From Glycomyces tritici (GTDB lineage: Bacteria > Actinomycetota > Actinomycetes > Mycobacteriales > Micromonosporaceae): DNA of 64,000 nt. Where the stretch lies: contig NZ_JAUEMJ010000011.1 of NCBI RefSeq assembly GCF_030403505.1, positions 149,694 through 213,693 on the forward strand. The letters run 5' to 3'. The first letter of the stretch is position 1, and each line of letters starts with the position of its first letter. The notes beneath the pieces are model-generated. The model was not told the DNA's origin. It saw only the letters and a program-made list of their open reading frames with translations, and did not search any database. This document shows, piece by piece, positions 29,110 through 45,590 of this stretch. Position numbers and translations under genes: made by a program.

Positions 29110-29126
29110 CCCGAAGAAGCTCAGTG
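28980..29126 (+). repeat. Direct repeat A (transposase 3' end)
   Basis: From CGTTTCCGCTGCCTGCAGAA to GCTCAGTG this segment matches 29783-29930 with scattered differences. The two copies flank the lamin-tail-like gene. The end GCCCGAAxAxGCTCAGTG may be the terminal sequence of the original IS. Confidence 0.7.
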
Positions 29127-29782: not shown

Positions 29783-29930
29783 GCGTTTCCGCTGCCTGCA
29801 GAAGGTCTCACTCGATCCCTGGAAGATCGGGATCTTCGCCCGCGCCTGCCTGGCCATCCAACGCATCGAGCGACCCCGACGACTCATCCTCACTCAGCAC
29901 ACATGATGCGTTGCCCGAAAAGGCTCAGTG
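29783..29930 (+). repeat. Direct repeat B (second transposase 3' end)
   Basis: Encodes MRFRCLQKVSLDPWKIGIFA, RACLAIQRIERPRRLIL, against RFRCLQKVSLNPWRIGTIA in copy A. Only the terminal ~150 bp of the element are left. The C-terminus of the acetyltransferase gene on the minus strand runs into it. Confidence 0.7.
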
Positions 29931-30646
29931 CCACCATGGCCTCTGATCCGACCGGCCTCTCCCGCGCCCTCGGACCCGAGTCCGAACCAAGTCCGGCAGT
30001 CGCCGTCGAACCCGGTCACTGTGACCGGGGGACGCAACCGGGAACGCCAGTCGGCTGCTTCCATGCGGAACCTGCGGGAGGTCCGAGCGACACCGCCGTA
30101 GACCGCTTCGACGTCGATACCGTCGTCGCGGTAGCCGAGCCGTTCAGACACCCCGACCGACTTGCCGTTCGTTCTGAACGATCTGGAGCGGCAACTCCGG
30201 GCCTGCAGCCAGTCGAACGCGAACCCGAGAACGCCGGCGCGCGCTTCGGTGCCGTACCCGTTGCCCTGTTGTGCGAGGGTCAGCCACGAGATCGTGACGG
30301 CTTCGCGCGTCACCGGGAAGTGTTTGGAGTACAGGGTTTGGACACCAATGGGTTTCCCGTCGAGCCACACACCGAGTTCCAGGTGCCAGTTGTCGGCAGT
30401 CCACCGGGCGACTTCCCCAAGCTGGACCTGGACAACTCTTCTCGCGCGATCTTCAGGCGGTGCGCTCGACCATGACGACCGGGCCGACCCGATCGGGTTC
30501 TCGAACGGCTCCTCCCCCACTGCATGGATGGGTTCGCGCGCGCAGTCGGCGAGCAGCGGCAGCTCATCAGGGTGGGGAAGTCGCAGCGCGAGCCGAGCGG
30601 TGTTGATCCGGAGCCGGTAGAGCGGTATGACGTCACTGATGGGCAT
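29894..30646 (-). CDS. GNAT-family acetyltransferase, C-terminus altered by IS remnant
   Basis: 250 residues from the ATG at 30646 (an in-frame ATG at 30682 is also possible; neither has a good ribosome site). It starts IPLYRLRINTARLALRLP as in RimJ-like N-acetyltransferases, has WHLELGVWLDGKPIGVQTLY, the acetyl-CoA loop LAQQGNGYGTEARAGVLGFA and ERLGYRDDGIDV near the end. The segment QARSCRSRSFRTN is less regular than normal and might contain a compensated frameshift. The last ~30 residues are encoded across the border of repeat B, so the natural stop seems lost. Substrate unknown. Confidence 0.7.
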   Translation of the reverse strand: MPISDVIPLYRLRINTARLALRLPHPDELPLLADCAREPIHAVGEEPFENPIGSARSSWSSAPPEDRARRVVQVQLGEVARWTADNWHLELGVWLDGKPIGVQTLYSKHFPVTREAVTISWLTLAQQGNGYGTEARAGVLGFAFDWLQARSCRSRSFRTNGKSVGVSERLGYRDDGIDVEAVYGGVARTSRRFRMEAADWRSRLRPPVTVTGFDGDCRTWFGLGSEGAGEAGRIRGHGGTEPFRATHHVC

Positions 30647-30848
30647 TCGCCCAGTGTCGAATGTACGGCGAGCCGCCGGCAACTGGTTATCCAGCGGGAC
30701 AATCGAATCGGTGCCCCAAATGACTCCTGAAGGCGGCGTTCAACTCTTTGAGAGCTTCAAACTTGGTGGTTGCACCGGGCTGACACTATGTCTCGCACCC
30801 GATATATTCTCACAATATTGCAAGGAACTCCGCTCTCAGTGCTGCGGC

Positions 30849-31032: not shown

Positions 31033-31785
31033 TCAGGTCACCTTCGACGCCACGACTACCATCCGATCGCTGTCCAGGTTGAAGGCGGCCCCGCTCAGGG
31101 AAGCGGACACCTGCACGAGCCGTAGGCCGGCAGAGATCAGCATCTGTTCGATTTCTGAGGCGTTATACAGCCGTATGCGAAACTCACGCCTCTGAGATGA
31201 TCCGTCTCGAAAGATGGTCATTGTGAGCCGCAACCAGCCCGAGGCCGGATCGAACTGCCGGACCTCACCGAGGTGTGAGCCGTCCGGGAGCAGCGTGAAC
31301 CGCGACTGCCAGAAGTCCTTCGCCACCGCATCTCGGTTCGGAACCTGCAACAGCAGTCGGCCATCAGTGGCGAGAGCTGCCCGGATTGCCTTCAGTACCT
31401 CAAGGTCATCGTTCCGATGCTCAAGGTAGCCGAACGATTGGTAGAGCGACAGCACCGCGTCCAACTCAAGCCCCGCAGGAATATCACGCATATCAGCATG
31501 TATCCAGGTGACGTCCACACCGGCAGCCAATTGGTGCGCACGAGCGGCATCAAGCATCCTCTTGCTGAGGTCGAGACCCCGGACCTCGTGTCCGAACTCC
31601 GCTATGGCGATTGAGTGACGGCCCTGGCCGCAGCAGAGGTCGAGCACGCTCGAGCGCTCCCTGATTCCCAGCAGCGCGATCGCGTCACTAGCCTCCTTGC
31701 GGCTGCCTTCCGGAGAGTGGGCGAACTTGTCCAGATCCAGATAGAACTCGTCGAATGACGTCTCGTACCATGGTTTCTCCTTCAT
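31033..31785 (-). CDS. Class I SAM-dependent methyltransferase
   Basis: 250 residues from the ATG at 31785 (AGAGGTGGACGCG upstream). Motif I is SVLDLCCGQGRHSIAIAEFG (about 46-65), followed by an acidic VRGLDLS, then MRDIPAG and LDAVLSLYQSFGYLE, as in small-molecule or peptide methyltransferases. It is the outermost gene of the lanthipeptide cluster and diverges from precursor 1 and the synthetase. It could methylate the peptide's N-terminus or the acyl group; the target is unknown. Confidence 0.9.
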   Translation of the reverse strand: MKEKPWYETSFDEFYLDLDKFAHSPEGSRKEASDAIALLGIRERSSVLDLCCGQGRHSIAIAEFGHEVRGLDLSKRMLDAARAHQLAAGVDVTWIHADMRDIPAGLELDAVLSLYQSFGYLEHRNDDLEVLKAIRAALATDGRLLLQVPNRDAVAKDFWQSRFTLLPDGSHLGEVRQFDPASGWLRLTMTIFRDGSSQRREFRIRLYNASEIEQMLISAGLRLVQVSASLSGAAFNLDSDRMVVVASKVT

Positions 31786-32098
31786 CGCGTCCACCTCTCG
31801 GTCCCGAATTCGACAGGCCTTGAAGGATGCCCGCGACGCGCACGGTCTTTGCATGGGAAACGAATTTCGAGATCCTCAGTCGGGCCATCGAACGAGTCCG
31901 TCAAGCAGTGTCCATGTGCGTCACCACCTTGGTTGAAAGCGGGTTGGTATGCGGCTCATGCATTGATCATGCGCTCCGGCGCTATCGTCTGTCTCGCGTA
32001 CAAGCACACCTCCACACGGCCGGTTGCGCAGCATGGGGACCAGAATCCCATGGGCTTCCATCGAGACGCACGCGGCCGTCGAATCGGAAAGGACTGCC
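31786..32098. promoter_or_regulatory. Divergent promoter region, methyltransferase / precursor 1
   Basis: 313 bp without a convincing gene. TTTCGAGAT at about 31866 also occurs in the promoter region at 42040, which may be a shared site for the cluster's SARP regulator. No clear -10/-35 pair could be fixed. Confidence 0.35.
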
Positions 32099-32200
32099 AT
32101 GGTACTCGCCTTGCAGGAACTGGATCCCATCGAACTCACCGGTCCCATCGAACTCAACACCAGTACGAGCTCCTGCATCAGCAACAGCTGCAACAAGTAG
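32099..32200 (+). CDS. Class III lanthipeptide precursor 1
   Basis: 33 residues, ATG at 32099 with GGAAAGGACTGCC upstream. The leader MVLALQELDPIEL holds the (I/V)LxLQxL recognition motif of class III precursors. The core region TGPIELNTSTSSCISNSCNK has Ser/Thr and two Cys. Aligned with precursor 2, M1, LALQEL, P10, TGPIELN, S22, S25, C26, S30 and C31 are identical. S22-x2-S25-x5-C31 has the spacing of labionin-forming motifs. The LanKC synthetase starts 110 bp downstream on the same strand. Cleavage site and ring pattern are inferred. Confidence 0.88.
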   Translation: MVLALQELDPIELTGPIELNTSTSSCISNSCNK

Positions 32201-32310
32201 CACGAAGCGTGGTGCCGTCGATCGGGTCGCGGTCCATCGTGTACCCGGATCGGCGGTGTCACCTCCGATCTCAAGTCCATCAACGGCGCGATCCCGTGGG
32301 AAGTGAATCG

Positions 32311-35010
32311 ATGACACTCTTTGACGCGAAGCTGCTGCAGCTCTACACAAGCTCCTCGAAGCTGTGGTTCACCGACCCATCCTTGCAGCCCGTCTCGCCG
32401 AAGTACTTGGAGATCGTTCGCTCCCATGTCGGCCCGAGCGCGCGATTCGACCAGTCCGGCAACTGGACCATGGTCGACCAGGGCACAGGCGAAGGCGTCG
32501 AACAAGGGTGGAAGATCCACGTCTCCGCCTTGAACTCCAACGCCGAAGCAGTACTCGATCGAACCGTCGCCGCACTCGCCGAACTCAAGGTGGACTTCAA
32601 GTTCCTGTCGGACGAGGCGAGACTCGCGGACAGCAACAGCCGGCTCATGCCACGCGGCAACGGCTGCAAGTTCATCACGGTCTACCCCGTTTCGGAGCTG
32701 CAGTGCGGGCACCTGCTCGGAATCCTCTACGAAGCGCTCCGAGATTTCAAGGGGCCCAGGATCCTCTCCGACCGCCGATACCGCGACTGCGCGGTGCTCT
32801 ACTATCGGTTCGGCGGTCATCGTCCACTTTGGCAAATGACCACGACCGGCGCGCCGATGGCCATGATCCGCAATCCGGAGAACGGCGAACTCGTTCCGGA
32901 CATGCGGCTCCCTCACTGGTCGCCCCCGGAGTGGATCCGGTATGACCCGTTCGCGGCCGAAGAGCCCGCGGCGGTGCAAGGCATCGTGCTCGCCGACCGC
33001 TACCGGGTCGAGAGCGCCCTGCGCTTCACTAACATCGGCGGCATCTATCTGGGCACCGACCTCGAGACCGGGCGGCAGATCGTCGCCAAAGAGGCCCGCC
33101 CCGGCACGGACACGCTTCCGGACAGGGACATGGACGCCGTCAGCATCAGGCGGAACGAGTACTCGATGCTGAGCCGCCTGAAAGGCTCGAACGGGATCGT
33201 CGAGCCCATCGACTACTTCGTCCAGGACGAGCACGCCTTTCTCATCATCGAGTTCCTTGACGAGTCGGTCCACCTGCTGAGCTTCATCACCGGTAGGCAC
33301 CCGCTCCTCACCCTGGACGGTGCCGACGCCTACGAGGACTACTTCCGAACCGCGGTCCACGTGTGGATCGAGGTGGCGACCACCATTGCACGCCTTCATG
33401 ACGCCCGGGTCGTCCACGGCGACTTGAGCCTGTTGAACATCATGCTGGACTGGCGGACGGGCGACGACCTCCCCCACGTGACGCTCATCGACTTCGAATC
33501 GGCCGTCTGCCTCGACGAGCACGAGACCTCGTACTTGATCTCGACCGGTTTCACCCCGATGAATCAGCGTCAGGACCGATTGCCGAAGTTCGCGAACGAC
33601 GTGTTCGCTCTGGGAACACTGATGCTCGCGTGCCTCTTCCCTTCGACCGAACCGGGCATCGCGGATCGAAGGCAGTTCCACAGGCTCATCGGCAACCTCA
33701 ACGCCGACCTGCCACTTCCCGAAGGCCTCGCGGAACTCGTCACCGCCATGACGGACGAGGACCCGCTGCGGCGACCGCCCATTGAAGCGGTAGTCGCCCG
33801 CCTGAAGCAACTCAAGCCGAAGGCTCCAGAAGCGGTCGGGCCCGCGGGCCGGCTCGAGGCCGAAGCGTCGAAACTCGACCTCATGCGCCTTGTATCCGGC
33901 ATCGGGTTCGCCTCGACGCTCGACAGGTCTGACCGCGCGTACGCCGGGGATCCGATGCTGTACAGCACCAACCCCCTGTCCGTCGCCTACGGTGTGGTCG
34001 GCGTGATGCGGGCTCTGGCCTACATGGGACAGACGGATCTCAGCGGTCCTCGATCGTGGCTGCTGCAGCGCCGCATTCACGCCGACGACCTGCCTCCGGG
34101 CCTGTACCTCGGAATGTCCGGGATCGCGTGGGCCTGCGACGAACTCGGTATGCGCGAGTACGCGCACGACGTGATGGCGCTCGCGAACGGCCACTCGCTC
34201 ATCGGCGAGAGCAGCACCGTGTTCGACGGAGACGCCGGAGTCGTCTTCGCCAATCTGCACTTCTGGCACCGGAGTGGCGACACCACGTACTTGGAGACCG
34301 CCGCGCGACTGGCCGAACGAGTCCGCCAAGCGCTCGAGAGCTCGCAGTTCGACCGACCGGGGTTCGCCTTCGGCGCCAGCGGGTCCGCGCTCGCGCTGCT
34401 GTACGCCGGGACGGCCACCGGAGACGACAAGCTCGAGCTCGCCGGACTCAACCTCATCCGCGAGGTCATGTCCCACGCCCGCGCGATGGACGCGGGCTAC
34501 CGCAGCATCCCTGAGACCCTGGATGTCAAGTACCGAGAGACCGTCAGCCCCTATTGGCTCTCCGGCTCCGCCGGCGTCGGCGGCGCGGCGCTCCGATTCT
34601 GGCTCCGTTTCCAGGAGGAGGACCTGCAGAGGTTCGTCGACGACCTGGTCGTCGACGCCTCCCGCAAATACACGATGATGCCCGGCTACCTGTCGGGCCT
34701 GTCAGGAATGGGGGACTTCCTGCTGGACGTCCACTCCTTCACCGGGAAGGACGAGGCGCTCCGGGGTGCTTGCCGCGTTGCCGAAGGCATCGCGATCTTC
34801 GCCCGGGAGGAGGACGGGCACCTCCTCTTCCCAGGGTCGCAGCTGCTGCGCCATTCAGCGGACTTCGCCACCGGCGCAGCGGGAATCGGCATGTTCCTCC
34901 ACCGCCTCGAGGGGGTTCGAGCCGGCGGCGACCCCGGCCCTGTCCAGCTGCTTCCGGACCATCTGCCGCAGCGTGCGAAGCCGCGTCCGACTCCAGGCGA
35001 ACGCCTGTGA
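32311..35010 (+). CDS. Class III lanthipeptide synthetase (LanKC)
   Basis: 899 residues from the ATG at 32311 (GGGAAGTGA upstream). Three parts: an N-terminal phosphoSer/Thr lyase region (about 1-200, MTLFDAKLLQLYTSSSKLWF), a kinase with RYRVESALRFTNIGGIYLGT, catalytic HGDLSLLN (about 369) and metal-binding DFE (about 393), and a LanC-like cyclase (about 520-899: LYLGMSGIAWACDE, FAFGASGSALALLYAG, GYLSGLSGMGDFLLD). The cyclase lacks the Cys/Cys/His zinc ligands of LanC, as in class III. It phosphorylates core Ser/Thr, eliminates to dehydro residues and adds Cys thiols. It is translationally coupled to the MFS gene. Confidence 0.95.
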   Translation: MTLFDAKLLQLYTSSSKLWFTDPSLQPVSPKYLEIVRSHVGPSARFDQSGNWTMVDQGTGEGVEQGWKIHVSALNSNAEAVLDRTVAALAELKVDFKFLSDEARLADSNSRLMPRGNGCKFITVYPVSELQCGHLLGILYEALRDFKGPRILSDRRYRDCAVLYYRFGGHRPLWQMTTTGAPMAMIRNPENGELVPDMRLPHWSPPEWIRYDPFAAEEPAAVQGIVLADRYRVESALRFTNIGGIYLGTDLETGRQIVAKEARPGTDTLPDRDMDAVSIRRNEYSMLSRLKGSNGIVEPIDYFVQDEHAFLIIEFLDESVHLLSFITGRHPLLTLDGADAYEDYFRTAVHVWIEVATTIARLHDARVVHGDLSLLNIMLDWRTGDDLPHVTLIDFESAVCLDEHETSYLISTGFTPMNQRQDRLPKFANDVFALGTLMLACLFPSTEPGIADRRQFHRLIGNLNADLPLPEGLAELVTAMTDEDPLRRPPIEAVVARLKQLKPKAPEAVGPAGRLEAEASKLDLMRLVSGIGFASTLDRSDRAYAGDPMLYSTNPLSVAYGVVGVMRALAYMGQTDLSGPRSWLLQRRIHADDLPPGLYLGMSGIAWACDELGMREYAHDVMALANGHSLIGESSTVFDGDAGVVFANLHFWHRSGDTTYLETAARLAERVRQALESSQFDRPGFAFGASGSALALLYAGTATGDDKLELAGLNLIREVMSHARAMDAGYRSIPETLDVKYRETVSPYWLSGSAGVGGAALRFWLRFQEEDLQRFVDDLVVDASRKYTMMPGYLSGLSGMGDFLLDVHSFTGKDEALRGACRVAEGIAIFAREEDGHLLFPGSQLLRHSADFATGAAGIGMFLHRLEGVRAGGDPGPVQLLPDHLPQRAKPRPTPGERL

Positions 35011-36308
35011 GCTCCGCCGGGCCCGACCGGCCGACCGCCCTGTCCGCCTGGCAGGTATTGAAGATCCCCGACTACCGGGCGATCTGGCTGGCGGACCTCG
35101 TGAGCGGGATCGGCTCCGGCGCGACCGGGCTCGCAATGCTGCTCATGCTGACGGACTGGTCCGACGACCCCGGCATCATCGCCGTCTTCACCATCGCCAG
35201 CACCGTTCCGATGATCCTGGTGGGCCCGTTCGCCGGGGTCCTGGTGGACCGCTGGAACCGGATGGCGATCGTGGTGGTCGGCCGTCTGATCCAGGCGGTG
35301 CTCGTGCTGTCGCTGATGTTCATGGAGCCCGATCTCCTCTGGCTCGCGGCACTGGTCATCGCCGCGCAGTTCACCGTGTCCACGTTCACCGCCCCCGCAG
35401 CCGGTGCGATCTTCGGGCTCGTGATCCCGAACCACGGCCGCGCAGGTGCGTCGGGCCTGGGCGGAGCGACGGGGTTCGTGGTCGGCACGATCGGGGCGGG
35501 AGTCGCCTCGACCATGTACGCCACCGACATGCTCGACGCCGTGTTCGTCCTGGACGCGGTCACCTTCATCGCCGCGGCACTGCTGTACCTGCGAATCCGC
35601 CGCAACCCCGCGGTGGGCAAGCCCCCAGTAGCGGCCACCAGGCCGGCGTTCAAGGAGGACCTGACCGAAGGGATGGTGTTCTTGTCGCGGAACTCGGCCA
35701 TGCGGTACCTGCTGTTCGGTTTTGCCAGCATCTCGATCGCGACGGCGGCGATCAACGTCCTCTACGTGCCACTGGCCGTGGACGAACTGCACGCCGACGG
35801 ATTCGGGATCTTCGCCGTGCAGGCCACCGCGGGTCTCGGCACCGTGGTCGTCGGTCTGCTCGCCGGCCATCTCTCACGGGTGCTCAGCGACCTGGCCTGG
35901 TTCAGGATCGGCATCCTCGCCTTCGCCCTCCTCGGAATCGGATACGGCCTCTCGCCCAGCCTCTGGCACCTGGTCGCCCTGCATTTCCTCTTCAACTGCG
36001 TCGGCGTCAGGCTCTCCGCCAGCATCGAGTCGCTATTCCTGGCGATCACTCCGAACCACCAGCTCGGACGGGTCGGCTCGGCGGTCAACGCCGTCGAACG
36101 CGGGTTGTACGTGGCGCTCAACGCCGGTGTTGCCGCCTTGACCGGACTGATCGAGGTCCGCACCGTCCTCATCGTCTACGGCGTCGTCGCGGCAGTGGTC
36201 GCGGTCGTCGCCGGGTCCCTCCTGACCTCAGCGCGATTGGCGAGCACGGCAGTGGTGGACGACGACGAGGAGCCGCAACCGCAACCCGCCGAGCGCGAAG
36301 CCGCTTGA
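35007..36308 (+). CDS. MFS exporter of the lanthipeptide cluster
   Basis: 433 residues from a GTG at 35007 that overlaps the LanKC stop by four bases (GTGA), a sign of coupled translation. About 12 hydrophobic helices; IPDYRAIWLADLVSGIGSG and VGPFAGVLVDRWNRMAIVVV are the entry and motif A of the EntS/DHA3-like exporters common in biosynthetic clusters. It probably exports the mature product and gives self-protection. Ends 18 bp from the convergent AMP-ligase. Confidence 0.92.
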   Translation: MSSAGPDRPTALSAWQVLKIPDYRAIWLADLVSGIGSGATGLAMLLMLTDWSDDPGIIAVFTIASTVPMILVGPFAGVLVDRWNRMAIVVVGRLIQAVLVLSLMFMEPDLLWLAALVIAAQFTVSTFTAPAAGAIFGLVIPNHGRAGASGLGGATGFVVGTIGAGVASTMYATDMLDAVFVLDAVTFIAAALLYLRIRRNPAVGKPPVAATRPAFKEDLTEGMVFLSRNSAMRYLLFGFASISIATAAINVLYVPLAVDELHADGFGIFAVQATAGLGTVVVGLLAGHLSRVLSDLAWFRIGILAFALLGIGYGLSPSLWHLVALHFLFNCVGVRLSASIESLFLAITPNHQLGRVGSAVNAVERGLYVALNAGVAALTGLIEVRTVLIVYGVVAAVVAVVAGSLLTSARLASTAVVDDDEEPQPQPAEREAA

Positions 36309-36326
36309 GCTCCGGGCGAACCTGAC

Positions 36327-37787
36327 TCAGGTCAGCTGGCGCTCGTCGAATCGCCGCCTTAGCAGCATCTTCGCCACCTCGCCCTCCGCGTTCCTCGGCA
36401 GCTCGCCGACGAATTGGAAGTGCCGCGGCACCTGGTTCGGCCGCAGCCTTGCGAGGAGGAAGTGCAGCAGGTCATCCTCGTCGACCGCCGAGTCGACCAC
36501 GACCGCAGCGACGACCTCCTCACCCACGCGGGGATCGGGGACGCCGTAGACAGCCGCCTCCGTCACCTGCGTGTGCTCGGACAGGACCGTTTCGACCTCG
36601 GCCACCGAAACCGAGGTGAAACCGCGGTAGATCACCGCCCGCCAGCGGTCAAGCAGATGCAGCCGTCCCTCGTCGTCGACGTAGCCCCGATCGCCGGTGC
36701 GAATCCAGCCGTTGGTGAACCCCTTGCGGTCGTCCGTCGTCCTACCGACGTATCTCCGTGCCGGACGCGCGGGGAACAGCCAGACCTCGCCGACCTGGTT
36801 CGGCAGTAGGGCCGAGCCGTCCGCCCCGGTCACCCGAATCTCGCTGCCCGTCGTCGGCGTGCCCACAGCGTCGGGACGACTGCCGTCGTAGACCATCATC
36901 GCGCCCTCTGGCCAGGTCTCGGTCTGCGTGTAGAGGTTCAGTATCTTCGCCTTCGGCACGACGGCCTGGAAGCGGGCGATCGCGTCCGCAGTCGGCGGGC
37001 TGCCGGAGACGAAGATCGTGCGCAGTCGATCGAGTCCGCCGGGCGGCCGGCATTCGTCGGCGTTCAGGCGGGTGATCCCTCTGGCGTACAAGGAGGCCAC
37101 GCGGACCTGGTGCCTCACGGCGAGATCGAGGAAGTCCGGGACGTTGAAGTGGGGCTGCCAGACGATCGTCCAGCCGCGGCACATCGCGTCGATGAGCATG
37201 CCGAGCGCGTCCCGCGGACTGACCGCGCAGAGGTAGTCGGTCTTCCGGCGAGCCTCCCAGATGCACTTGCCCCACAACAGGTTATCGCTGCTGCAGGAGA
37301 CCCATTTCGGTTCCCCGGTGGAGCCGGACGTGTGCAGCACGAGGGCCGCGTCGGCCGGCAGCACGTCGGACGATGCCGTGGGCGGGTGCTCCAGTGGTTC
37401 CATGCGGACTTCGAGCGGGCACTCGCCTGAGACCTCGTCCGTCGAACGTTCAAGGCGATGGATGACGGCGACAGGACGGACGGTCTCGATGCCCCGCCTG
37501 AGCGCGCTCGGCTCAAGACCCGTGGCCAGCATCGGCACGGCACCGCTCAGGGCGACGCCGATCCACGCCACGGCGATCTCACCGAGTCGTTCCTCGCTCA
37601 AGGCGATGGCCACGGCGCGCCCCGGTGGAACCCCGCGGCCCCGCAGGTCGGCCGCGAGTCTCGTCGCCTCGCTCCACCATCTCCCGTAGGTCATTGCGCT
37701 GCCGTCGAACTCGCTCACGGCTCGGAGCTCCGGATCCCTTGCCGCCCGCTCCTCGAGCAGGCCGGGAATCGTCAGCGGTGTTTTCAT
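36327..37787 (-). CDS. AMP-dependent ligase/adenylation enzyme with A10 Lys replaced
   Basis: 486 residues; ATG at 37787 with AAGGAG, overlapping the stop of the methyltransferase gene by four bases (ATGA). P-loop-like HTSGSTGEPK (152-161), LYTQTETWPEG for A5, GWIRTGDRGYVDDEGRLHLLDR for A7/A8. In the A10 region the usual xGKxxR/K reads EGEVAKMLL: Glu470 stands where the catalytic Lys is expected, with Lys473 three residues on. Either Lys473 takes over, or the enzyme only transfers, or it is impaired. Substrate (amino acid, aryl or acyl acid) cannot be read. Its place next to the precursor 2 and PCMT genes argues for a tailoring role. Confidence 0.88.
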   Translation of the reverse strand: MKTPLTIPGLLEERAARDPELRAVSEFDGSAMTYGRWWSEATRLAADLRGRGVPPGRAVAIALSEERLGEIAVAWIGVALSGAVPMLATGLEPSALRRGIETVRPVAVIHRLERSTDEVSGECPLEVRMEPLEHPPTASSDVLPADAALVLHTSGSTGEPKWVSCSSDNLLWGKCIWEARRKTDYLCAVSPRDALGMLIDAMCRGWTIVWQPHFNVPDFLDLAVRHQVRVASLYARGITRLNADECRPPGGLDRLRTIFVSGSPPTADAIARFQAVVPKAKILNLYTQTETWPEGAMMVYDGSRPDAVGTPTTGSEIRVTGADGSALLPNQVGEVWLFPARPARRYVGRTTDDRKGFTNGWIRTGDRGYVDDEGRLHLLDRWRAVIYRGFTSVSVAEVETVLSEHTQVTEAAVYGVPDPRVGEEVVAAVVVDSAVDEDDLLHFLLARLRPNQVPRHFQFVGELPRNAEGEVAKMLLRRRFDERQLT

Positions 37788-38809
37788 GCCGGCTCCTTCA
37801 AACGCGGTTCGACGCCTTCCCAGGCCGGGACCAGGCAGTCTCCGACGGGCGAGGACGCTTCGCCCCATCGGATCGGAAGGTCGGCGGCCCGTGGAGATCC
37901 TCGGTCGAGCCAGTCGGCGTACTCCTGCTCCATGGTTCCGATGCCGTCGCCGCTTCCGGCGACCTCGCGCCGCGCCAGGCGATATCGGGCCCAATGGTCA
38001 CCCCCGCCGTTCTCGAGCCACATGACCTCTGGTCCGGCCTTGGGCCACAGGAAGGCGGCGTGCCCGCGCCAGAGTAGCCATGCCCAGAAGTCGACGACAC
38101 GACCGGCGGGACCCTCCGTCCATGATCGTGTGGACGTCGCAGCGCCCTGACGCGCCACTCGGTCCACGACGGCTGTCAGACTTCCTGCCACGGGCGTCTC
38201 ATGCTGGACGAGGATCTTGACGAGTCCGACACTGAAGGAGTCCGATCCACGCCTGACCTCCGCGCCCACTTGCAGGTCCGGTCTGTCGAATATGCACAGC
38301 GCGCGACCTTCCGGAGCGAGGGACTCGCAGAGTCGCATCGGCAGCATCGCGATGGAGGGCCAGACGACGATTCGGTCGAAGTCGCGGCGACCAGGTTCGA
38401 GCGCCAGGCCGTCGCCGCAGCGGCGGTCGATTTCGGTGACGCTCGCGGTCGAGAGAGCCGTTGCCGCTCTCTCGACCCGAGTCGCGTCGAGCTCGATGGT
38501 CGTCAGCCGGCCGCTGGCACCGATGCAGTGCGCGATCAAGGCGCTGGCATAACCCGACCCTGTGCCGATTTCCAGCACCCTCATGCCGGACCGGAGGTCC
38601 AACAGGTCGATCATCCCGATTCGGGTCGCCCGCGGCGTCGGGATCAGACCTGACGAGCCGTCGATGCCGTCGGACCCGAAACGGCACGGGTGCACCGACT
38701 CGACGGCCGCTCGGGTGCTTCTCCTCACCGCCGCCCCGGCTCCGTGCAGCGCAGCGAGATAGCGGTCGCGGTAGCAGTCTTCGTGGGCCATGGTCGGTGT
38801 CGACTCCAT
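37784..38809 (-). CDS. Protein-L-isoaspartate O-methyltransferase-like enzyme
   Basis: 341 residues (ATG at 38809 with GGTGA; ATG at 38791 is possible). Residues about 50-200 have the PCMT pattern: GSSGLIPTPRATRIGMIDLL, motif I MRVLEIGTGSGYASALIAHC (76-95), FDRIVVWPSIAMLPMRLCESL. A ~140-residue C-terminal extension carries Trp-rich segments (VDFWAWLLWRGHAAFLW) as in PCMT homologues linked to RiPP clusters, some of which methylate core Asp to drive aspartimide formation. Neither precursor core contains Asp, so the target here is open. Coupled to the AMP-ligase. Confidence 0.88.
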   Translation of the reverse strand: MESTPTMAHEDCYRDRYLAALHGAGAAVRRSTRAAVESVHPCRFGSDGIDGSSGLIPTPRATRIGMIDLLDLRSGMRVLEIGTGSGYASALIAHCIGASGRLTTIELDATRVERAATALSTASVTEIDRRCGDGLALEPGRRDFDRIVVWPSIAMLPMRLCESLAPEGRALCIFDRPDLQVGAEVRRGSDSFSVGLVKILVQHETPVAGSLTAVVDRVARQGAATSTRSWTEGPAGRVVDFWAWLLWRGHAAFLWPKAGPEVMWLENGGGDHWARYRLARREVAGSGDGIGTMEQEYADWLDRGSPRAADLPIRWGEASSPVGDCLVPAWEGVEPRLKEPA

Positions 38810-38973
38810 TCAGTTCACCGATGTGAGCGAAATCTGGAGGTCCTCGGGTCGGTGGAAGATCCGTGCCGCGACTCGCTCCTCAGGCACGACGTGCAATCGG
38901 GGCACCGCCGATCGCCCGTCACGGCTTGATCGGGGTGATCGGCGATGCCCCTCAGATCTCCCTGAATCCACTT

Positions 38974-39078
38974 CTACTTGGAAGTGCAGCTGCCGAGGGC
39001 GCAGGAGGTCGAACTGAAGTTGAGCTCGATCGGGCCGGTAACGTCCACCGGTTCCAGCTCTTGCAAAGCGAGAATCAT
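38974..39078 (-). CDS. Class III lanthipeptide precursor 2
   Basis: 34 residues, ATG at 39078 with AGGAAAGGAAAAGCC upstream, similar to precursor 1. Leader MILALQELEPVDV, core region TGPIELNFSSTSCALGSCTS plus Lys. Conserved with precursor 1: LALQEL, TGPIELN, S22, S25, C26, S30, C31 and a C-terminal Lys. It lies between the SARP and PCMT genes on the same strand, so it may be in one transcript with the minus-strand tailoring genes. Two precursors of like length could yield a two-component product or two congeners. Confidence 0.88.
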   Translation of the reverse strand: MILALQELEPVDVTGPIELNFSSTSCALGSCTSK

Positions 39079-39227
39079 GGCTTTTCCTTTCCTGTCGTGA
39101 TGCGAAGCGACGCCTTCGAGCGGCAGTCGGTCATTCGCCCTTGCAGCAGACAACGCTTTTGCATGCCACCGTCATCGACCGTAATCAGCTCGCGTACAGG
39201 CAACGCATCACTCGCATACCGTGCAGT

Positions 39228-40043
39228 TCAGCACCGGCAGACCTCGTTGTGGATCAATGCGCGGACGCGACTCGCATCCCGATTGAGCGCGGCATACTGC
39301 AGCGAAGCGATTGATTCGGGCATGCCCACCCCGAGTTCGTCGAAGTACATCATGCAGCGCTTGATCGATGCGAGCGCTCCCTCGAGATCACCGACGAGGA
39401 ATTGAGCGGCGGCGTGGAGCAGCCGAAGTCGTTCCCGGTGGGGCGCTTGGGACACGGCGATGCTGAGCTCGGGAAGCCGAGCGGTGATCTCCGCTCCTTC
39501 CAGCAATGACGCCGAAAACAGCGTTTCCAAAAGGGATTCGTGCTGCAGGACCAGGGCGGTCTCGTGCGTCGAGACCGTGGGAGTCGAGGGCAGATCCGTG
39601 CTGAAACCGCCGGACCACAGCGCCTCGGCCTGCAGGCAGTACCGGGTTGCCATGGGCCAATCGGCGGACTTGAAGCGCCGGTGCGCCTGGCTGCACAGGT
39701 GCTCGAACTCGATCACGTCGACCTGGCCGGGGTCGATTGCCAGCCGGTATCCTCCGCCGCTTCCTCCTCGTGCCCCGCGCTGCGTGGTGAGCAGGCCGGA
39801 CGTGCCGGGTATGACCTTCTCGAGGTCGGTGCGGAGCCCTGAGACGGCCGATCGAAGGTTGGGAAGAGCGGACGCCGGCGCGTCCACCCAGCACCAGTGC
39901 TTCATGGCTTCGAACGTGACCAGCTTGCCGGCGTTCAAGGACAGGGCGGCGAGGACGCCTCTCCTGATGTGGTGGGAAGGGGTGTGCGTGATGCGTCCGT
40001 CACTGATCGCGACGCTGTCGAGCAAACGGATGCGAATGTTCAA
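39228..40043 (-). CDS. SARP/BTAD-type transcriptional activator
   Basis: 271 residues starting at a TTG (40043) with a perfect AAGGAG seven bases upstream. N-terminal winged helix of the OmpR type (RRGVLAALSLNAGKLVTFEA, ALPNLRSAVSGLRTDLEKVI) followed by a BTAD-like helical domain (GQVDVIEFEHLCSQAHRRFK, LQHESLLETLFSASL, HRERLRLLHAAAQFLVGDLE). Streptomyces antibiotic regulatory proteins of this kind bind heptameric direct repeats and recruit RNA polymerase. It is the only regulator in the cluster and is likely its pathway activator. Confidence 0.9.
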   Translation of the reverse strand: MNIRIRLLDSVAISDGRITHTPSHHIRRGVLAALSLNAGKLVTFEAMKHWCWVDAPASALPNLRSAVSGLRTDLEKVIPGTSGLLTTQRGARGGSGGGYRLAIDPGQVDVIEFEHLCSQAHRRFKSADWPMATRYCLQAEALWSGGFSTDLPSTPTVSTHETALVLQHESLLETLFSASLLEGAEITARLPELSIAVSQAPHRERLRLLHAAAQFLVGDLEGALASIKRCMMYFDELGVGMPESIASLQYAALNRDASRVRALIHNEVCRC

Positions 40044-40132
40044 AGGGGTCTCCTTGCCGACTTGAGGCGCAAGTGCTCCTGGGAAGGGGGATCGGTCGGG
40101 ACGAGTCTGGTCTCTCGCAGGTTGCATCGGTC

Positions 40133-41998
40133 TCAAAGCGACGCCTCTCGCCGCATGCGCTTCGCGAGTGAGGCCATGGAGCCGAGACCGAGGAAATCTC
40201 CTGGGTCGAGGCCGGTGTATCCGCTGTTGCGCAGCAGTTCCATCATCCCCGCGATCATCAGGTAGCTGCCCCCGAGTGCACTGTACGACCTCGTCGGATC
40301 CACATTCGACGATTTATTGCACTCGGTGAAGACCTGCTTCAGGACCTCGAAGCGCTCGTCGACGAAGACTCGTGCCGGGTAGTCGTCGATGGGACTGAAC
40401 TGGTCGATCACGGGGCTCGCCTGCCAGGAGGCTGCACGATGCGCGGACTCCGGCTGTTCGGAAGTAAGGACGTAGAGCGCGGGGATCTTGACGAGCGGAT
40501 CGTGGGAGGACTCGACCAGCAGCCGTTCGTGGATCTCAGTGAGATCCACTTCGACGCCCGCGACATAGGCGACGAGGCCATCGGTTCCGCTCACGATGAC
40601 CATCGCCGCAACGACACCCTCGCAGCGTTCGATGAGCGCTTCGATGCGGTTCGCGGAGAACCGCGAGGCGCCGAACTCGAGCCACCTGGTCTCCGGCGAT
40701 CCAGCCCACGCATCCGAACAGTCCCCAGAGCGCTGGACCGGACGATCCAACCCGTTCGCCGCCCGTTGAATGAAGTCGACGAGTTGCCGCAGTATCTCGA
40801 TGGTGTCCGTCTCGGAGAACACTGCCGCATCCGAGTTCACGTTCAGACTGGTCGCGTTTCGGTAAGGCGAGATGTTGAACCAGAGATGATCGGTGCGGGC
40901 CTCTCCTACCCCGGGATAGATGTCCTGCCCCTCATGGGGCCACACGATCGCGACGTTGCTCAAGTAGTCGAGGTACTCGATGAGCACAGGACTGGCCAGG
41001 GTCGACCCTGCGGTCTCACTGGCCCTTGCGTTGTCCATCATGCAGGCGCCGATGTCGCGATTCGCGAAGAAGTACGCATTGATCAGCGAGCTGTGGGTCC
41101 GCTTGAGGACTGAGCGGTAGGTGTCGTCGGGAGCGAGTTCGAACCGGCAGTCCACGGTCGAAGCGAGTCGGCCGACGTAATCGCGGACCTTCTTGTTCCA
41201 CCGGTTCGCGACCGCGGTCGTGAACAGGAACCGAGGGGTTCGCGTCCAGTCGCTCACCACCTTGCAGACCGCTGCGTGGAATACCGAGGGAGTCGAGACG
41301 GCGCAGCGATCCGCGACCGAGGTGGCCGCTTCCATGATCGTCTTGTCCAGCAAGGTGACGGACCTGGTGTTGCCTGAGCCGTACTTCCAGCTCAGCGAGG
41401 GCAGAAAGTTCCGAGGAGCGTCTTCCCTGAGCTCCCGGAAGTACTGGACCGCGCGCTCTCCTCGAACTGCGGCCCTGAAGTCCGAAGCGAGTTCCGAGGT
41501 GGCGACGTCGATGGGCTGGAGCCTGTCGGCCGCGATGACCGGACGCGATCTCCCGCCGGAGAACAGGAAGACCTCCACCTCCCGGCCGATCATCGCCATG
41601 GAGGTCCCGTCGAGGTCTACCTGGTTGGCGACCAGCATGGCCGCCAGCACCGTGGCCCCGTCGACAGTCGCCTGGCACCGGAAGCCGGGCCGATCGAACA
41701 TGCTCACCGGCTGCACCGCGTCAGGCGGGCCGATCGTGACCTCGGGCCGGTAGGCGGCGAGCACCGACTGCCTCGGAGCCTCGCTTCCAGGACGCTCGTA
41801 GAAGGTTCGCAAGGCCTCATGTCGCTCGGCGCTTGCCGAAAGCGCCGCTTCGAGGTTCGCGATCGAGGTTCCGTCCGGCAGCCGGATCCTCTGCGAGATC
41901 CGCGGCTCCGCGCCCCAATCCTCCATGAAGTAAGGATCGTTGTAGAACCAGAACATGTGCTGCGCCCAGGTGAGAGGTCCCGTGCGAGTTACCTGCAT
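40133..41998 (-). CDS. Condensation-domain-like acyltransferase with degenerate catalytic motif and carrier-like C-terminus
   Basis: 621 residues, ATG at 41998 after GAGGAAAGG. It starts GPLTWAQHMFWFY like NRPS condensation domains (LSxAQxxLWF). The HHxxxDG motif reads NQVDLDG (125-131), so both His, including the general base, are replaced while DG is kept. SWKYGSGNTRSVTL and a later CAMPF-like stretch keep the two-lobed fold. Residues about 550-621 resemble a carrier domain, but GGDSL reads GGSYL (576-580), so the phosphopantetheine Ser is shifted or lost. I infer a transferase or docking partner that works with the free carrier and FAAL to acylate the peptide. It could also be a non-catalytic scaffold. 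Confidence 0.78.
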   Translation of the reverse strand: MQVTRTGPLTWAQHMFWFYNDPYFMEDWGAEPRISQRIRLPDGTSIANLEAALSASAERHEALRTFYERPGSEAPRQSVLAAYRPEVTIGPPDAVQPVSMFDRPGFRCQATVDGATVLAAMLVANQVDLDGTSMAMIGREVEVFLFSGGRSRPVIAADRLQPIDVATSELASDFRAAVRGERAVQYFRELREDAPRNFLPSLSWKYGSGNTRSVTLLDKTIMEAATSVADRCAVSTPSVFHAAVCKVVSDWTRTPRFLFTTAVANRWNKKVRDYVGRLASTVDCRFELAPDDTYRSVLKRTHSSLINAYFFANRDIGACMMDNARASETAGSTLASPVLIEYLDYLSNVAIVWPHEGQDIYPGVGEARTDHLWFNISPYRNATSLNVNSDAAVFSETDTIEILRQLVDFIQRAANGLDRPVQRSGDCSDAWAGSPETRWLEFGASRFSANRIEALIERCEGVVAAMVIVSGTDGLVAYVAGVEVDLTEIHERLLVESSHDPLVKIPALYVLTSEQPESAHRAASWQASPVIDQFSPIDDYPARVFVDERFEVLKQVFTECNKSSNVDPTRSYSALGGSYLMIAGMMELLRNSGYTGLDPGDFLGLGSMASLAKRMRREASL

Positions 41999-42315
41999 CT
42001 TTACCTTTCCTCGCTGCCCCGGGGTCCGGGGCCCGAAAGTTTCGAGATTTTCCCGGTAATTTTCGAGCCTAGCAGCTTGAGTAGTGAAGTCAAGATTCCT
42101 TTAGTGACCTAAGTGGTAATTGCACCGCCCACTTGGCCACTCTCGCCACTCTGGAATCATTGGTTCATCCATTTCGCTGCATCGTGCGTTGAAAATGCGA
42201 GGTTCATACTCTCCGTCTTTACCTTCGGGTTCCACGTGAGCACGACGACCCTAGGTGGGGAAGGCGCAGTTTCCGGAGGCCTCCCCATCCTGGCGACCGT
42301 GAAGGGAACCTGTGA
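41999..42315. promoter_or_regulatory. Divergent promoter region with SARP-like repeats
   Basis: 317 bp between the condensation-like gene and the carrier protein gene. TTTCGAG occurs at 42040-42046 and 42061-42067 (21 bp apart), and TAGTGA at 42082-42087 and 42102-42107 (20 bp apart). SARP targets are heptamer direct repeats at about 11 or 22 bp, so these are candidates. A 68-codon GTG frame here has no ribosome site. Confidence 0.4.
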
Positions 42316-42585
42316 ATGACTGAAGCATCCGCCGCACCCGCCTTGGAACTCGTATTGCCCCGGTTGATCCAGCAGTGCGTGGAGATCCTGGAGATCGATG
42401 GCCTTGAGGCCGACGCGAACTTCTTCGACTTCGGAGGGGACTCCCTGGCGGTCGTCGAGTTGCTGGGCGCGATCCATGACGAATGGGGCGTGGAACTGGC
42501 CGTCGACCAACTCCTGTCGGCTTCGGACCTGACCGCGGTCGCGATCATTGTGACGAACGCATTGGCCCATGCTCGACCTGCTTGA
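42316..42585 (+). CDS. Free-standing acyl/peptidyl carrier protein
   Basis: 89 residues, ATG at 42316 with GAAGGGA upstream. A complete carrier domain: ADANFFDFGGDSLAVVELLG holds the phosphopantetheine-accepting Ser, followed by helices III/IV ending VAIIVTNALAH. It is functional as far as can be seen, unlike the degenerate one at the end of the condensation-like protein. Its 3' end overlaps the FAAL start by 17 bases, so the two are coupled partners. Confidence 0.93.
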   Translation: MTEASAAPALELVLPRLIQQCVEILEIDGLEADANFFDFGGDSLAVVELLGAIHDEWGVELAVDQLLSASDLTAVAIIVTNALAHARPA

Positions 42586-44239
42586 CGGGAGCGGCCAACC
42601 TACGTCGCTCATGGACCGGGTGGCCCTTCATGCCGACGTTGATCCCTCAAAGACCGCGATGCGGTGGGTCTCTGGGAAAGACGGGCATGCCGAGACGCTG
42701 GATTACGGAGGGATGCACCGGGCCGCGCTGATCCTGGCGGCGCAGATCGAGGGCAGCGTCGTCGATGTGCCGGTCGGTATCGCCTGCGCCTCACCGCTGA
42801 ATGCGGCGGTCGGAGTCCTGGCTTGCCTTGCTTCCGGCCTGGCCTGCGAAGTGCTGCCGTCCCCAGCGGAGGTGCGCGGGACCGATACTTTCTCATCCGA
42901 TCCGCAGCGCGCCTGCAGCACCGACCAGGTCCTGAGCGACCGCGTGATCGGCGGCGCCGGCTGGCGTCAGGTCGCTTTCGGCAAGAGCGAGTTCAACCTC
43001 TTCGCCCGGCCCAAGAAGACCCCGTCGTTCGCGCGATCGCTGACCGACATCGCGTTCATCCAATCGACGTCGGGCACGACCGGGAATCCCAAGACCGTCT
43101 TGGTCTCACACCGAAACATCGAGGCGGCCTGCGAACAGGCGGCCGAGGCGTACGGGCTGACTGCGGAGGACCGGTTCGTCTCGTGGACCCCGATGCACTA
43201 CAGCATGGGCATAGTGAACGCTCTGCTCCTGCCGCTCACGCTGGGGGCCACCTCCACGCTCGTAGCCTCCCGAGGTTTCGCAGAGGACCCGATGGCCTGG
43301 CTCCGCGCCGTCCAGCGGTACCGCGGCACCTATTCCTCCGCGCCGGAATTCGGCTACTCGCGCTGCGTCGACCGGATCGGGCCGGAGCTCGCGGCCGGAC
43401 TGGACTTGAGCTCCTGGCGGGTGGCGAGGGTCGCTGCGGGGCCCTTGTGGAGTGAGGTGCTCGACGGCTTCGTCGAACGCTTCGGTCCGTCGGGCTTTCG
43501 CGCGGAGGCGTTCTGCCCCTCCTACGGATTGACCGAGGCCACCCTCTTCGTCTCCGGCACGAGGCCGGGCGAGCCTTATCCCCCGCGGGCGGCTCTCAGT
43601 TCCTGGTCGCAGAACGAGGTGGTCGCCGCAGGTCGGCCGATGCCGGGAACCTCGATCACCATCGTCGATCCAGAGACCGGCAGTACGTGCGCACCGGGCG
43701 CGGTCGGCGAGATACGGGTGTCGGGGCCGCAAGTGGCGATGGTCGTCGGTGAGGACGAGAGCAACCGGTCCGCTCAGGAGCGTTCGGCTGCGGCTGCCGT
43801 TTCTCTCGTCACCGGAGACCTCGGCGTGTTCGAGGACGGCATGCTGTGGGTCGTCGGCCGGCGGCGGGACATCGTCAAGATCCGAGGCGTGACCCACTCG
43901 CTGTCGTCGATCGACCATGAGATCGCAAAGGCGGCGGCAGAACTCGGTGTCCGGCGGTGGTGCGCACTCGCCGGTGGCGGGCTGAGGTCCGAGCAGCTCT
44001 GGGTCGCCGCGGAGCCCGGGGACGACTTGGCTCCTGACGAGGTCGTCCGGAGAATCGCCAGGTTCATTCCGGCTGTGACCGGCGTTCGCGCCCACCGGAT
44101 CGTGCTGGTCGGGCCCGGCGAGCTCCCTGTGACCGACAGCGGTAAGCCTCGGCGGTCCGAGTGCGTGCGTCAGCTGCTCGCCGATTCCATGACCACCCTG
44201 TGTTCGTGGCCGGAAAGCCGCGCACGGGTCGAGCGCTAA
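42569..44239 (+). CDS. Fatty-acyl-AMP ligase (FAAL-type)
   Basis: 556 residues; ATG at 42569 inside the carrier gene. P-loop FIQSTSGTTGNPKTVLVSH (about 162-180), then SWTPMHYSMGIVNALLLPLT and SSAPEFGYSRCVDRI, DLSSWRVARVAAGPL, FRAEAFCPSYGLTEATLFVS, all typical of FAALs rather than acyl-CoA ligases. A8 GRRRDIVKIRG and A10 PVTDSGKPRR with intact Lys are present. FAALs activate fatty acids as AMP esters and load them on a carrier protein. The coupled carrier gene directly upstream is the expected partner, which points to a lipid group on the lanthipeptide. Chain length is unknown. Confidence 0.9.
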   Translation: MLDLLDGSGQPTSLMDRVALHADVDPSKTAMRWVSGKDGHAETLDYGGMHRAALILAAQIEGSVVDVPVGIACASPLNAAVGVLACLASGLACEVLPSPAEVRGTDTFSSDPQRACSTDQVLSDRVIGGAGWRQVAFGKSEFNLFARPKKTPSFARSLTDIAFIQSTSGTTGNPKTVLVSHRNIEAACEQAAEAYGLTAEDRFVSWTPMHYSMGIVNALLLPLTLGATSTLVASRGFAEDPMAWLRAVQRYRGTYSSAPEFGYSRCVDRIGPELAAGLDLSSWRVARVAAGPLWSEVLDGFVERFGPSGFRAEAFCPSYGLTEATLFVSGTRPGEPYPPRAALSSWSQNEVVAAGRPMPGTSITIVDPETGSTCAPGAVGEIRVSGPQVAMVVGEDESNRSAQERSAAAAVSLVTGDLGVFEDGMLWVVGRRRDIVKIRGVTHSLSSIDHEIAKAAAELGVRRWCALAGGGLRSEQLWVAAEPGDDLAPDEVVRRIARFIPAVTGVRAHRIVLVGPGELPVTDSGKPRRSECVRQLLADSMTTLCSWPESRARVER

Positions 44240-44267
44240 TCGGCTGCGGCGAAGCCGGCCTGCGCAC

Positions 44268-45590
44268 CTACTGCGGCTCGGCTCCCCGATACCGGGCGAG
44301 GGACTCGGCGACCTGGTCGACGTCCGCGAGGATCACCACGACCGCGTTGTCGGGACCCATGCGTTCAGCGGCGACCCGTCGCACATCGCCGGGCGTGACA
44401 CCCCGCAGCTGCTCGGCGTGGTCGGCGAGCCAGGAGAGCGGCAGGCCGCAAGCGGCGAGGGCCTCTATGCAGTTGGCGAGTCCGGCCTGCGTGGCGATGC
44501 CCATCTTCATCGCGCCGAGTGCGAACCCTCGCGCAGAGCGGAGTTCCTCCTCGTCCACCGGGCGCTCGGTCATTCCGCGGAGTTCACCGAGAATCTCCGC
44601 CAGTGCCGCGGCGGTCACGTCCGTGGCGACGTCCACCCCGATCAATTGCACCGACCCGACCGGGAGTTGGTCGACGTACGCCCAGAGTGAGTATCCGAAG
44701 CCTTTGGTCTCGCGCAGGTTCGATACGAGCCGGGAGATCGAATAGCCGCCCAGCGCCATGACGGCGAGGTGCTGGGCGGCGTTGTCGGGATGGGTGCGGC
44801 CGACGGCGCCGCACGCTACGCGGATCGACGACTGCACCGAGCCGGGGCGGTCGGCCAGGACCAGCGGCCCGGGCTCCAGTTCGGGCAGCGGCTCCGGGAG
44901 GCCGGGGCCCGCGGAACCGCTCCAGGATTCGAACGCCTTCTCGACGTCGGTGGCGGTCTGCTCGGGGTCGATGTCGCCGACGATGACCAGCCGGGCGCCC
45001 TTGGGCTGGAGCATGGACCGGTGGGCGGCTATGACAGCCTCGCGTTCGACCGCGGCGATTTCATCGGCGGAGGGTGTGCGGCGACCGTAGGGGTGTTTTC
45101 CCCAGAGGCGTGCGTTGAAGGCCCGGTCAACCTGGAAGTCGGCTCGCTGCTCAGCCACCGAGAGCCAGCTGATCACCCGGGCGCGTTTGGTCTCGAAGGG
45201 CCGTTCAGGGTAATCGGCGGTGGCGAGCAGGTCCCCGAGGACGGCTAGGAGGTCAGGGAGTCCTGAGGCGAGGCAGTTGCCGGAGATCGTGAGCTCGCCC
45301 GGGCCGGTGTCGGCGCGGAGCGTGCCTCCTGCGCCTTGGATGCGCTGCGCGAGCTGGGTCGAGGTCGCGTTCGCCGTGCCGGTGAGCAGTGCGGCGGCTG
45401 CCATGTCCTTGACCGCCTGGTTGATGCGAGCGGTCGGGATGGAGAGCCGAAGTTCAGCCAGTGGCACGCCTGGACGCCGGGCCATGATGAGTCGAAGCCC
45501 ACTCGAGAACCGAGATTCGATCACGTTAGGCAGTCGAAGGGGCGCTTCCTCAGCAAGCGGTGGGATCTTCTTGAAATCGTGCTCGCTCAC
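44268..45590 (-). CDS. M16-family peptidase-like protein without HxxEH zinc motif
   Basis: 440 residues from a GTG at 45590 (AAGGGAG upstream). The two-domain M16B fold is clear: ESRFSSGLRLIMARRPGVPL, the linker NARLWGKHPYGRRTPSADEI, ARLVIVGDIDPEQT, and LRETKGFGYSLWAYVD with the Arg/Tyr pair near the C-terminus. Where active subunits have HxxEH this protein reads MAAAALLTGTANATS, so it should not bind zinc itself. M16 proteases are known to remove class III leader peptides. This is probably the non-catalytic half of a heterodimer whose catalytic partner lies outside the cluster. Converges with the FAAL gene 28 bp away. Confidence 0.85.
   Translation of the reverse strand: MSEHDFKKIPPLAEEAPLRLPNVIESRFSSGLRLIMARRPGVPLAELRLSIPTARINQAVKDMAAAALLTGTANATSTQLAQRIQGAGGTLRADTGPGELTISGNCLASGLPDLLAVLGDLLATADYPERPFETKRARVISWLSVAEQRADFQVDRAFNARLWGKHPYGRRTPSADEIAAVEREAVIAAHRSMLQPKGARLVIVGDIDPEQTATDVEKAFESWSGSAGPGLPEPLPELEPGPLVLADRPGSVQSSIRVACGAVGRTHPDNAAQHLAVMALGGYSISRLVSNLRETKGFGYSLWAYVDQLPVGSVQLIGVDVATDVTAAALAEILGELRGMTERPVDEEELRSARGFALGAMKMGIATQAGLANCIEALAACGLPLSWLADHAEQLRGVTPGDVRRVAAERMGPDNAVVVILADVDQVAESLARYRGAEPQ

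Follow-up and report, generated by a model that had tools for sequence, protein, structure and literature searches.

A class III lanthipeptide gene cluster of Glycomyces tritici that includes genes for a FAAL-like ligase, a free carrier protein and a condensation-like protein

A 64,000 nt stretch of DNA from Glycomyces tritici (assembly GCF_030403505.1, contig NZ_JAUEMJ010000011.1, positions 149,694-213,693; G+C content 66%), referred to here as the window, carries at positions 31033-45590 a cluster in which genes for a class III lanthipeptide lie together with genes for the probable activation of an acyl group (Table 1). Gene families were assigned by Pfam and NCBIfam profile matches. Precursor A, the class III lanthionine synthetase LanKC and an MFS exporter form a plus-strand set. 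A single minus-strand string consists of the genes for a condensation-like protein, a SARP-type regulator, precursor B, a PCMT-type methyltransferase and a second AMP-ligase (ACL), with the ATG of the ACL gene overlapping the PCMT stop, and the genes for a free carrier protein and a fatty acyl-AMP ligase (FAAL)-like protein are divergent from the condensation-like gene. Genes for a methyltransferase (MT1) and an M16-like protein flank the set. The gene list of the original prediction (two precursors, LanKC, MFS, SARP, two methyltransferases, M16-like protein, FAAL, carrier, condensation-like protein and second AMP-ligase) was found in full within this interval. The cluster is real and rare, is present in two diverged species, and is a variant of those for the lipidated class III lanthipeptides.

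The LanKC is intact, scoring 643.9 bits against NF038151 (curated cut-off 575) and 458.2 bits against the class IV model (cut-off 650). Each precursor gene has an ATG start behind a purine-rich stretch, and the leader pattern M[VI]LALQ[EA]L[DE]P is common to precursors A and B and to the complete precursor of Glycomyces paridis described below. All three of these complete precursors include the core pattern S22-x2-S25-C26-x3-S30-C31, have no Asp after residue 12, and contain a single Lys that is the last residue; in a second precursor from G. paridis, part of which is masked, the visible end is likewise Lys. Class III cores have the form S-(X)2-S-(X)2-5-C (PMC8960859). The S22-x2-S25-x5-C31 segment fits this form, and hence the precursors are of the kind expected in a class III cluster.

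The acyl branch comprises four proteins, the FAAL-like ligase, the free carrier, the condensation-like protein and ACL. For the FAAL-like ligases of both the window and G. paridis, the top two NCBIfam matches were FAAL models or the FAAL-type start of a model of nonribosomal peptide synthetases (NRPS) and polyketide synthases (one of each kind for the window protein), and the P-loop TSGTTG[NE]PK and the A10 lysine (K526) are present in both. Compared with 7r7f, the stretch aligned with the FAAL-specific insertion is shorter by about 14 residues. As judged by their motifs, the FAAL-like ligase and the free carrier protein are the sole members of the branch that seem fully able to load an acyl group.

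The HHxxxDG motif of condensation domains and the A10 lysine of AMP-ligases have catalytic roles. In the condensation-like protein, the match to PF00668 covers the second half of the profile, and the HHxxxDG stretch reads N-[QLHICK]-x-D-x-D-G in all ten rows of the clade alignment, with the second His retained in only one of them. N125, D128, D130 and G131 are invariant in the ten rows despite this loss in the other nine, which suggests that the site is altered rather than decayed. A tblastn comparison found His at the second-His position in 73 of the 78 loci kept from the genome scan described below, with L, C and Q at loci L001-L003. The C-terminus aligns with the C-terminal part of the adenylation domain (A-domain) and the carrier domain of DhbF, and the phosphopantetheine Ser of the carrier-like domain is replaced by Tyr in nine rows and by Phe in one, the Ser of DhbF lying opposite the Tyr. 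An AlphaFold2 model of the protein (predicted local distance difference test score 69.6) matched condensation domains, SgcC5 (4znm) being among the Foldseek matches, and the protein is accordingly classed as having a condensation fold. In a wider group of condensation-like proteins (P0011-P0018), the motifs are of the SHxxxD or CHxxxD type and the carrier-like end is missing. The ACL was aligned with related proteins chosen from the best 120 of 267 relatives, giving nine in all (P0021-P0027, P0029 and the G. paridis protein); the A10 position is occupied by Glu in two and Thr in two of the four close members, and by Lys in all six outgroup rows. The condensation-like protein and ACL would therefore appear, from their residues, to be either altered enzymes or partners. 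The acyl-activation branch, predicted to be complete, thus includes two of four proteins without the usual catalytic residues.

A scan of genome contigs with the ten-row profile of the condensation-like protein, from which 78 loci were kept, identified one close locus, in G. paridis CPCC 204357 (62% identical), and two distant ones, in Jidongwangia harbinensis (34%) and Glycomyces luteolus (33%). Eight core genes are common to the window and G. paridis, encoding a precursor, LanKC (51% identical), the FAAL-like ligase (48%), carrier (52%), ACL (50%), PCMT (47%), SARP (74%) and the condensation-like protein; the complete G. paridis precursor is 59% identical over 32 aa. The gene order differs, the G. 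paridis precursors adjoin LanKC, and two ABC transporters (Pfam) take the place of the MFS exporter. No convincing counterpart of MFS, MT1, M16 or the GNAT gene near the cluster was detected in the 37 kb of G. paridis sequence (best E 0.10 or worse). Recurrence of the eight-gene set indicates that the cluster is more than a chance assembly. The acyl branch and LanKC accordingly look linked.

Table 1. Features of the cluster and of its surroundings in the G. tritici window.
Feature	Position	Strand	Remarks
LTD-domain protein	29121-29609	-	Secreted-type start; cluster flank
GNAT	29894-30682	-	Acetyltransf_3; outside the cluster
MT1, class I SAM methyltransferase	31033-31785	-	Best NCBIfam match daptide_MTase, 66.9 bits, below cut-off 175
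Precursor A, 33 aa	32099-32200	+	S22-x2-S25-x5-C31 motif; sole Lys is the final residue
LanKC, class III lanthionine synthetase, 899 aa	32311-35010	+	NF038151, RamC_N, Pkinase, LANC_like; PDB LanKC chains
MFS exporter	35007-36308	+	MFS_1 75.1 bits; GTG start overlaps LanKC stop
ACL, second AMP-ligase, 486 aa	36327-37787	-	PF00501 and PF13193; P-loop retained; A10 Lys replaced by Glu
PCMT-type methyltransferase	37784-38809	-	RiPP-PIMT motif WXXXGXP (WLDRGSP); 4-nt overlap with ACL
Precursor B, 34 aa	38974-39078	-	Between SARP and PCMT; S22-x2-S25-x5-C31; sole Lys is the final residue
SARP-type regulator	39228-40043	-	BTAD 51.7 bits; TTG start
Condensation-like protein	40133-41998	-	PF00668 50 bits; NQVDLDG for HHxxxDG; remnant of A-domain C-terminal subdomain; carrier-like LGGSY
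CTCGAAANTTTCG-like repeated box	42032-42068		Upstream of condensation-like gene; possible regulator site (weak)
Free carrier protein, 89 aa	42316-42585	+	PP-binding 49.7 bits; GGDSL
FAAL-like acyl-AMP ligase, 556 aa	42569-44239	+	A10 Lys retained; start inside carrier gene
M16-like protein, non-catalytic type	44268-45590	-	M16_C 91.9 bits; no HXXEH
DUF7380 protein	46726-48795	-	Cluster flank on the other side

The frequency of such a set was assessed in a control set of 101 genomes sharing the family-level group that contains G. paridis, with FAAL-like places taken at E <= 1e-50. LanKC places numbered 41, in 38 genomes, and FAAL-like places were present in 52 genomes. By coordinates, one of the 41 LanKC places, that of G. 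paridis, had a FAAL-like place within 20 kb, the next being at about 27 kb (genome G220). In the condensation-like survey, the profile was found in two of 22 genomes of the genus (G. paridis and G. luteolus), in one of 200 of the order at 1e-30, and in three of 396 of the phylum at 1e-20, two of these being partial matches of less than 100 bits inside longer frames; the LanKC and FAAL-like surveys of the 101 genomes and the condensation-like surveys of order and phylum scored only a few candidates per genome. Scanning viral contigs with the condensation-like alignment gave nine stretches, none of which was confirmed, and tblastn of the protein in plasmids gave no match. The set is rare in the genomes searched.

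Independent occurrence of the acyl genes and LanKC was the finding that the original prediction had named as speaking against it. Neighbourhoods of about 8 kb on each side were taken for 20 of the 41 LanKC places, three of them shortened by contig ends, and none of these 20 other neighbourhoods included a match (E <= 1e-4) to the acyl genes (FAAL, carrier, condensation-like and ACL), PCMT or SARP; the distant condensation-like relatives (33-34% identical) occur in carrier-protein clusters without LanKC in the fetched stretch. Among distant members, each branch is therefore found in the absence of the other, and the close clade sits with LanKC in the one genome that could be read. One group of LanKC genes (L106-L110) falls between that of the window and the more distant ones of the same 101 genomes, and each member adjoins an MFS-like gene, as judged by reading or a weak match. 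These were rejected as further members of the system, having no FAAL, carrier, condensation-like, ACL, PCMT or SARP match.

In the protein database, the nearest to the LanKC of the window are P0141 (89% identical), P0142 (55%) and the G. paridis protein (51%), followed by proteins at 34% and lower, and the nearest ACLs among the matches listed are P0021 (88%) and P0022 (55%), followed by those at 36% and lower. The condensation-like relative P0002 and the ACL P0022 probably lie together, as they are from the same source and both contigs are 7797 nt. Of the condensation-like relatives P0002-P0007, which come from the sources lgn and jgi, P0005 showed no difference by eye from the G. paridis protein over the stretches compared. 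The G. luteolus relative (L003) is near genes for a free carrier protein, an acyl-CoA dehydrogenase, a flavin reductase and a DAHP-synthase-like protein, and no LanKC above the cut-off was found in that genome. The J. harbinensis relative (L002) is near genes for KASIII-type, ATP-grasp, P450, BtrH_N and A-carrier proteins, and LanKC was not matched in the stretch fetched; two LanKCs above the cut-off are found elsewhere in Jidongwangia, one on the same contig about 400 kb off if the coordinates run alike. These neighbours suggest that the condensation-like family goes with carrier-bound acyl groups, and the link to LanKC seems to be a feature of the close condensation-like clade.

The remaining genes of the cluster bear on maturation and control. 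The WXXXGXP motif, reported for methyltransferases (PIMTs) associated with ribosomally synthesised and post-translationally modified peptides (RiPPs; PMC13001092), is present in the PCMT proteins of both the window and G. paridis, the latter read by eye from its translation. As the cores include no Asp, the PCMT target may be the C-terminal carboxylate. Methylation of the C-terminal carboxylate of lanthipeptides by LahSB occurs (PMC11285071), and the LahSB family is separate from the RiPP-associated PIMTs (PMC13001092). M16B pairs cut off class III leaders (PMC8960859). HXXEH was not found in the M16-like protein, which is encoded by the sole M16 gene found, and hence this protein is not the active subunit, which leaves it at most the role of a partner. 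Neither a LanD-type Cys decarboxylase nor a GNAT was detected by Pfam among the genes scanned at 31033-45590. A GNAT gene about 350 nt from the MT1 stop was tried as a source of the transferase and rejected, as it lies outside the cluster and nothing in the G. paridis stretch matched it (best E 2.9); it is probably not part of the system. In the SARP, the Trans_reg_C match (15.5 bits) is under its cut-off. Upstream of the condensation-like gene, two CTCGAAANTTTCG-like copies, one of them exact, are spaced 21 nt apart, and an exact copy precedes the G. paridis gene; the box is a possible SARP site. It was rejected as proof of co-regulation, since no copy was seen before LanKC and the number of matches does not exceed chance (7 in the window, a shuffle mean of 3.77, and at least 7 in 12 of 100 shuffles).

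Taken together, the genes point tentatively, at a likelihood a little short of even, to a class III lanthipeptide pathway joined to an acyl-loading FAAL and carrier, in which the condensation-like protein would transfer the acyl group onto the peptide, probably at the N-terminal amine. Given its family and intact motifs, the FAAL would form acyl-AMP from the acid and ATP and then load the holo-carrier. LanKC, as a member of its family, would dehydrate and cyclise each core at S-x2-S-x5-C. The condensation-like protein, which has lost the catalytic His and no longer has an intact carrier site of its own, would take the acyl group from the loaded free carrier in trans and acylate the peptide through an altered site that retains N125, D128, D130 and G131. 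The PCMT-type enzyme may methylate a carboxylate, perhaps that of the C-terminus, a protease, perhaps with the M16-like protein as one half, would cut off the leader, and the product would be exported by the MFS protein or, in G. paridis, by an ABC transporter. The N-terminus is favoured as the acyl site because the known N-lipidated class III lanthipeptides carry their lipid there. At the level of enzymology, this would amount to lipo-initiation in the style of an NRPS with a new active site, in which a His-less, stand-alone condensation-fold enzyme may move an acyl group from a FAAL-loaded carrier onto a lanthipeptide; we regard this as a genuine possibility, though somewhat below an even chance.

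The same acyl branch could instead acylate the C-terminal Lys at its side chain, giving a selidamide-like outcome by means of an enzyme other than a GNAT. This Lys is the sole one in all three complete precursors and also ends the part-masked fourth, and acylation of Lys by GNATs is known in lanthipeptides (PMC13060382). However, the class III lipidated lanthipeptides named in that paper bear the lipid at the N-terminus, a C-terminal Lys can add to a dehydroalanine residue instead (PMC10373908), and the precursors compared are few and related, so that Lys acylation is considered unlikely. A further reading is that the acyl branch yields a separate small product, such as an acylated signal or a self-protection molecule, and has only the locus in common with the lanthipeptide genes. 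Condensation-like relatives in carrier-protein clusters (L002 and L003) have no LanKC in the fetched stretch, and the CTCGAAANTTTCG box was observed ahead of the condensation-like gene and not ahead of LanKC, both as this reading would have it. It is nevertheless judged improbable, since the same eight genes stay together in the diverged and reordered cluster of G. paridis and, in the window, precursor B lies inside the string of acyl genes.

It is also conceivable that the condensation-like protein and ACL form a non-catalytic docking platform or scaffold, with transfer carried out by another enzyme. Loss of HHxxxDG (second His in one of ten rows), replacement of the carrier Ser (Tyr in nine rows, Phe in one), and absence of the A10 Lys from all four close ACLs against its presence in all six outgroup rows agree with such a role. 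Invariant polar residues nonetheless persist at the HHxxxDG site, and the genes common with G. paridis include no other transferase, the GNAT near the cluster being unmatched there; a purely structural role is thus rated as rather unlikely, if less so than the two preceding readings.

Several points weigh against transfer of the acyl group to the lanthipeptide by the condensation-like protein. Attachment of the group to the peptide is what we infer. The usual catalytic His is gone from the condensation-like protein, which may be a pseudo-enzyme, and the FAAL models were matched below their curated cut-offs (PRK09192, 218.7 against 600). Gene context was read for one close condensation-like relative only, that of G. 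paridis, in which the gap between SARP and PCMT holds no visible precursor, and the embedding of precursor B is hence not conserved. Condensation-like relatives occur without LanKC nearby in the fetched stretches of L002 and L003, and for P0007 (56% identical), on a contig of 26,296 nt, there was no LanKC or ACL among the matches listed from a contig of that size. The PCMT is left unexplained by any conserved core Asp.

Among known systems, the avionin ring of lipolanthines needs a C-terminal Cys. As the three complete precursors end in Lys, not Cys, and the common gene set includes no GNAT or ketosynthase (KS), membership in the lipolanthines was rejected. SgcC5 is a free-standing condensation enzyme, and enzymes of its type resemble the condensation-like protein in having a condensation fold outside an assembly-line module; the clade described here differs in its additional A-domain remnant and Ser-less carrier-like domain and in the loss of the catalytic His. 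Lipolanthines, goadvionins and lipoavitides resemble the present system in their LanKC-type synthetase, small precursors and a lipid expected on the peptide. Microvionin is lipidated by a GNAT, goadvionins and lipoavitides are further N-terminally lipidated class III peptides (PMC13060382), and lipolanthines combine polyketide- or fatty acid-derived chains with the avionin macrocycle (PMC10435860), whereas the common gene set here is without KS or GNAT and has a FAAL-like, carrier and condensation-like set. Selidamides and nostolysamides are likewise acylated lanthipeptides, with the Lys side chain as a possible site in common, but use GNAT maturases, the nostolysamides having a class II synthetase (PMC13060382, PMC10373908); no GNAT is present in the common set here. 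The adjoining FAAL and carrier genes and the condensation-fold partner recall the FAAL, stand-alone acyl carrier protein and starter condensation domain of daptomycin-type systems (PMC9113097, PMC10134820). In those systems the acceptor is an NRPS-bound amino acid, whereas here it is likely a ribosomal peptide, and HHxxxDG is gone. The PCMT protein resembles RiPP-associated PIMTs of the LanSA and imiditide type in its PCMT domain, C-terminal extension and WXXXGXP motif (PMC13001092), and differs in that the cores here have no conserved Asp.

The route had been predicted to differ from those known. A FAAL-like, carrier and condensation-like set does lie beside LanKC, in contrast to the GNAT routes described in PMC13060382, and is linked to it in G. 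paridis; completeness was the part of the claim that did not hold. The words 'lanthi' and 'ribosomally' did not occur in the FAAL review PMC11837247, where a lone 'ripp' was part of an author name, and in those papers checked that contain both 'fatty acyl-AMP ligase' and 'lanthipeptide', as far as their text was available and with most subscription papers outside the search, the two terms occur apart. The predicted acylation route is thus unlike those found described for lipidated lanthipeptides, though its absence from print is not shown.

The second species strengthens the idea of a hybrid cluster, and the transfer step is the central question. As a named strain, G. paridis CPCC 204357, carries the cluster, this question is directly testable. 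In the literature covered, as far as its text was available, GNATs supply the acyl group in the lipidated lanthipeptides described. The cluster raises the question of how a condensation fold without HHxxxDG might form an amide. If the proposed transfer is correct, a FAAL-carrier-condensation route would draw a free carboxylic acid onto a ribosomal peptide, and the starter logic of NRPS could be rewired to RiPPs.

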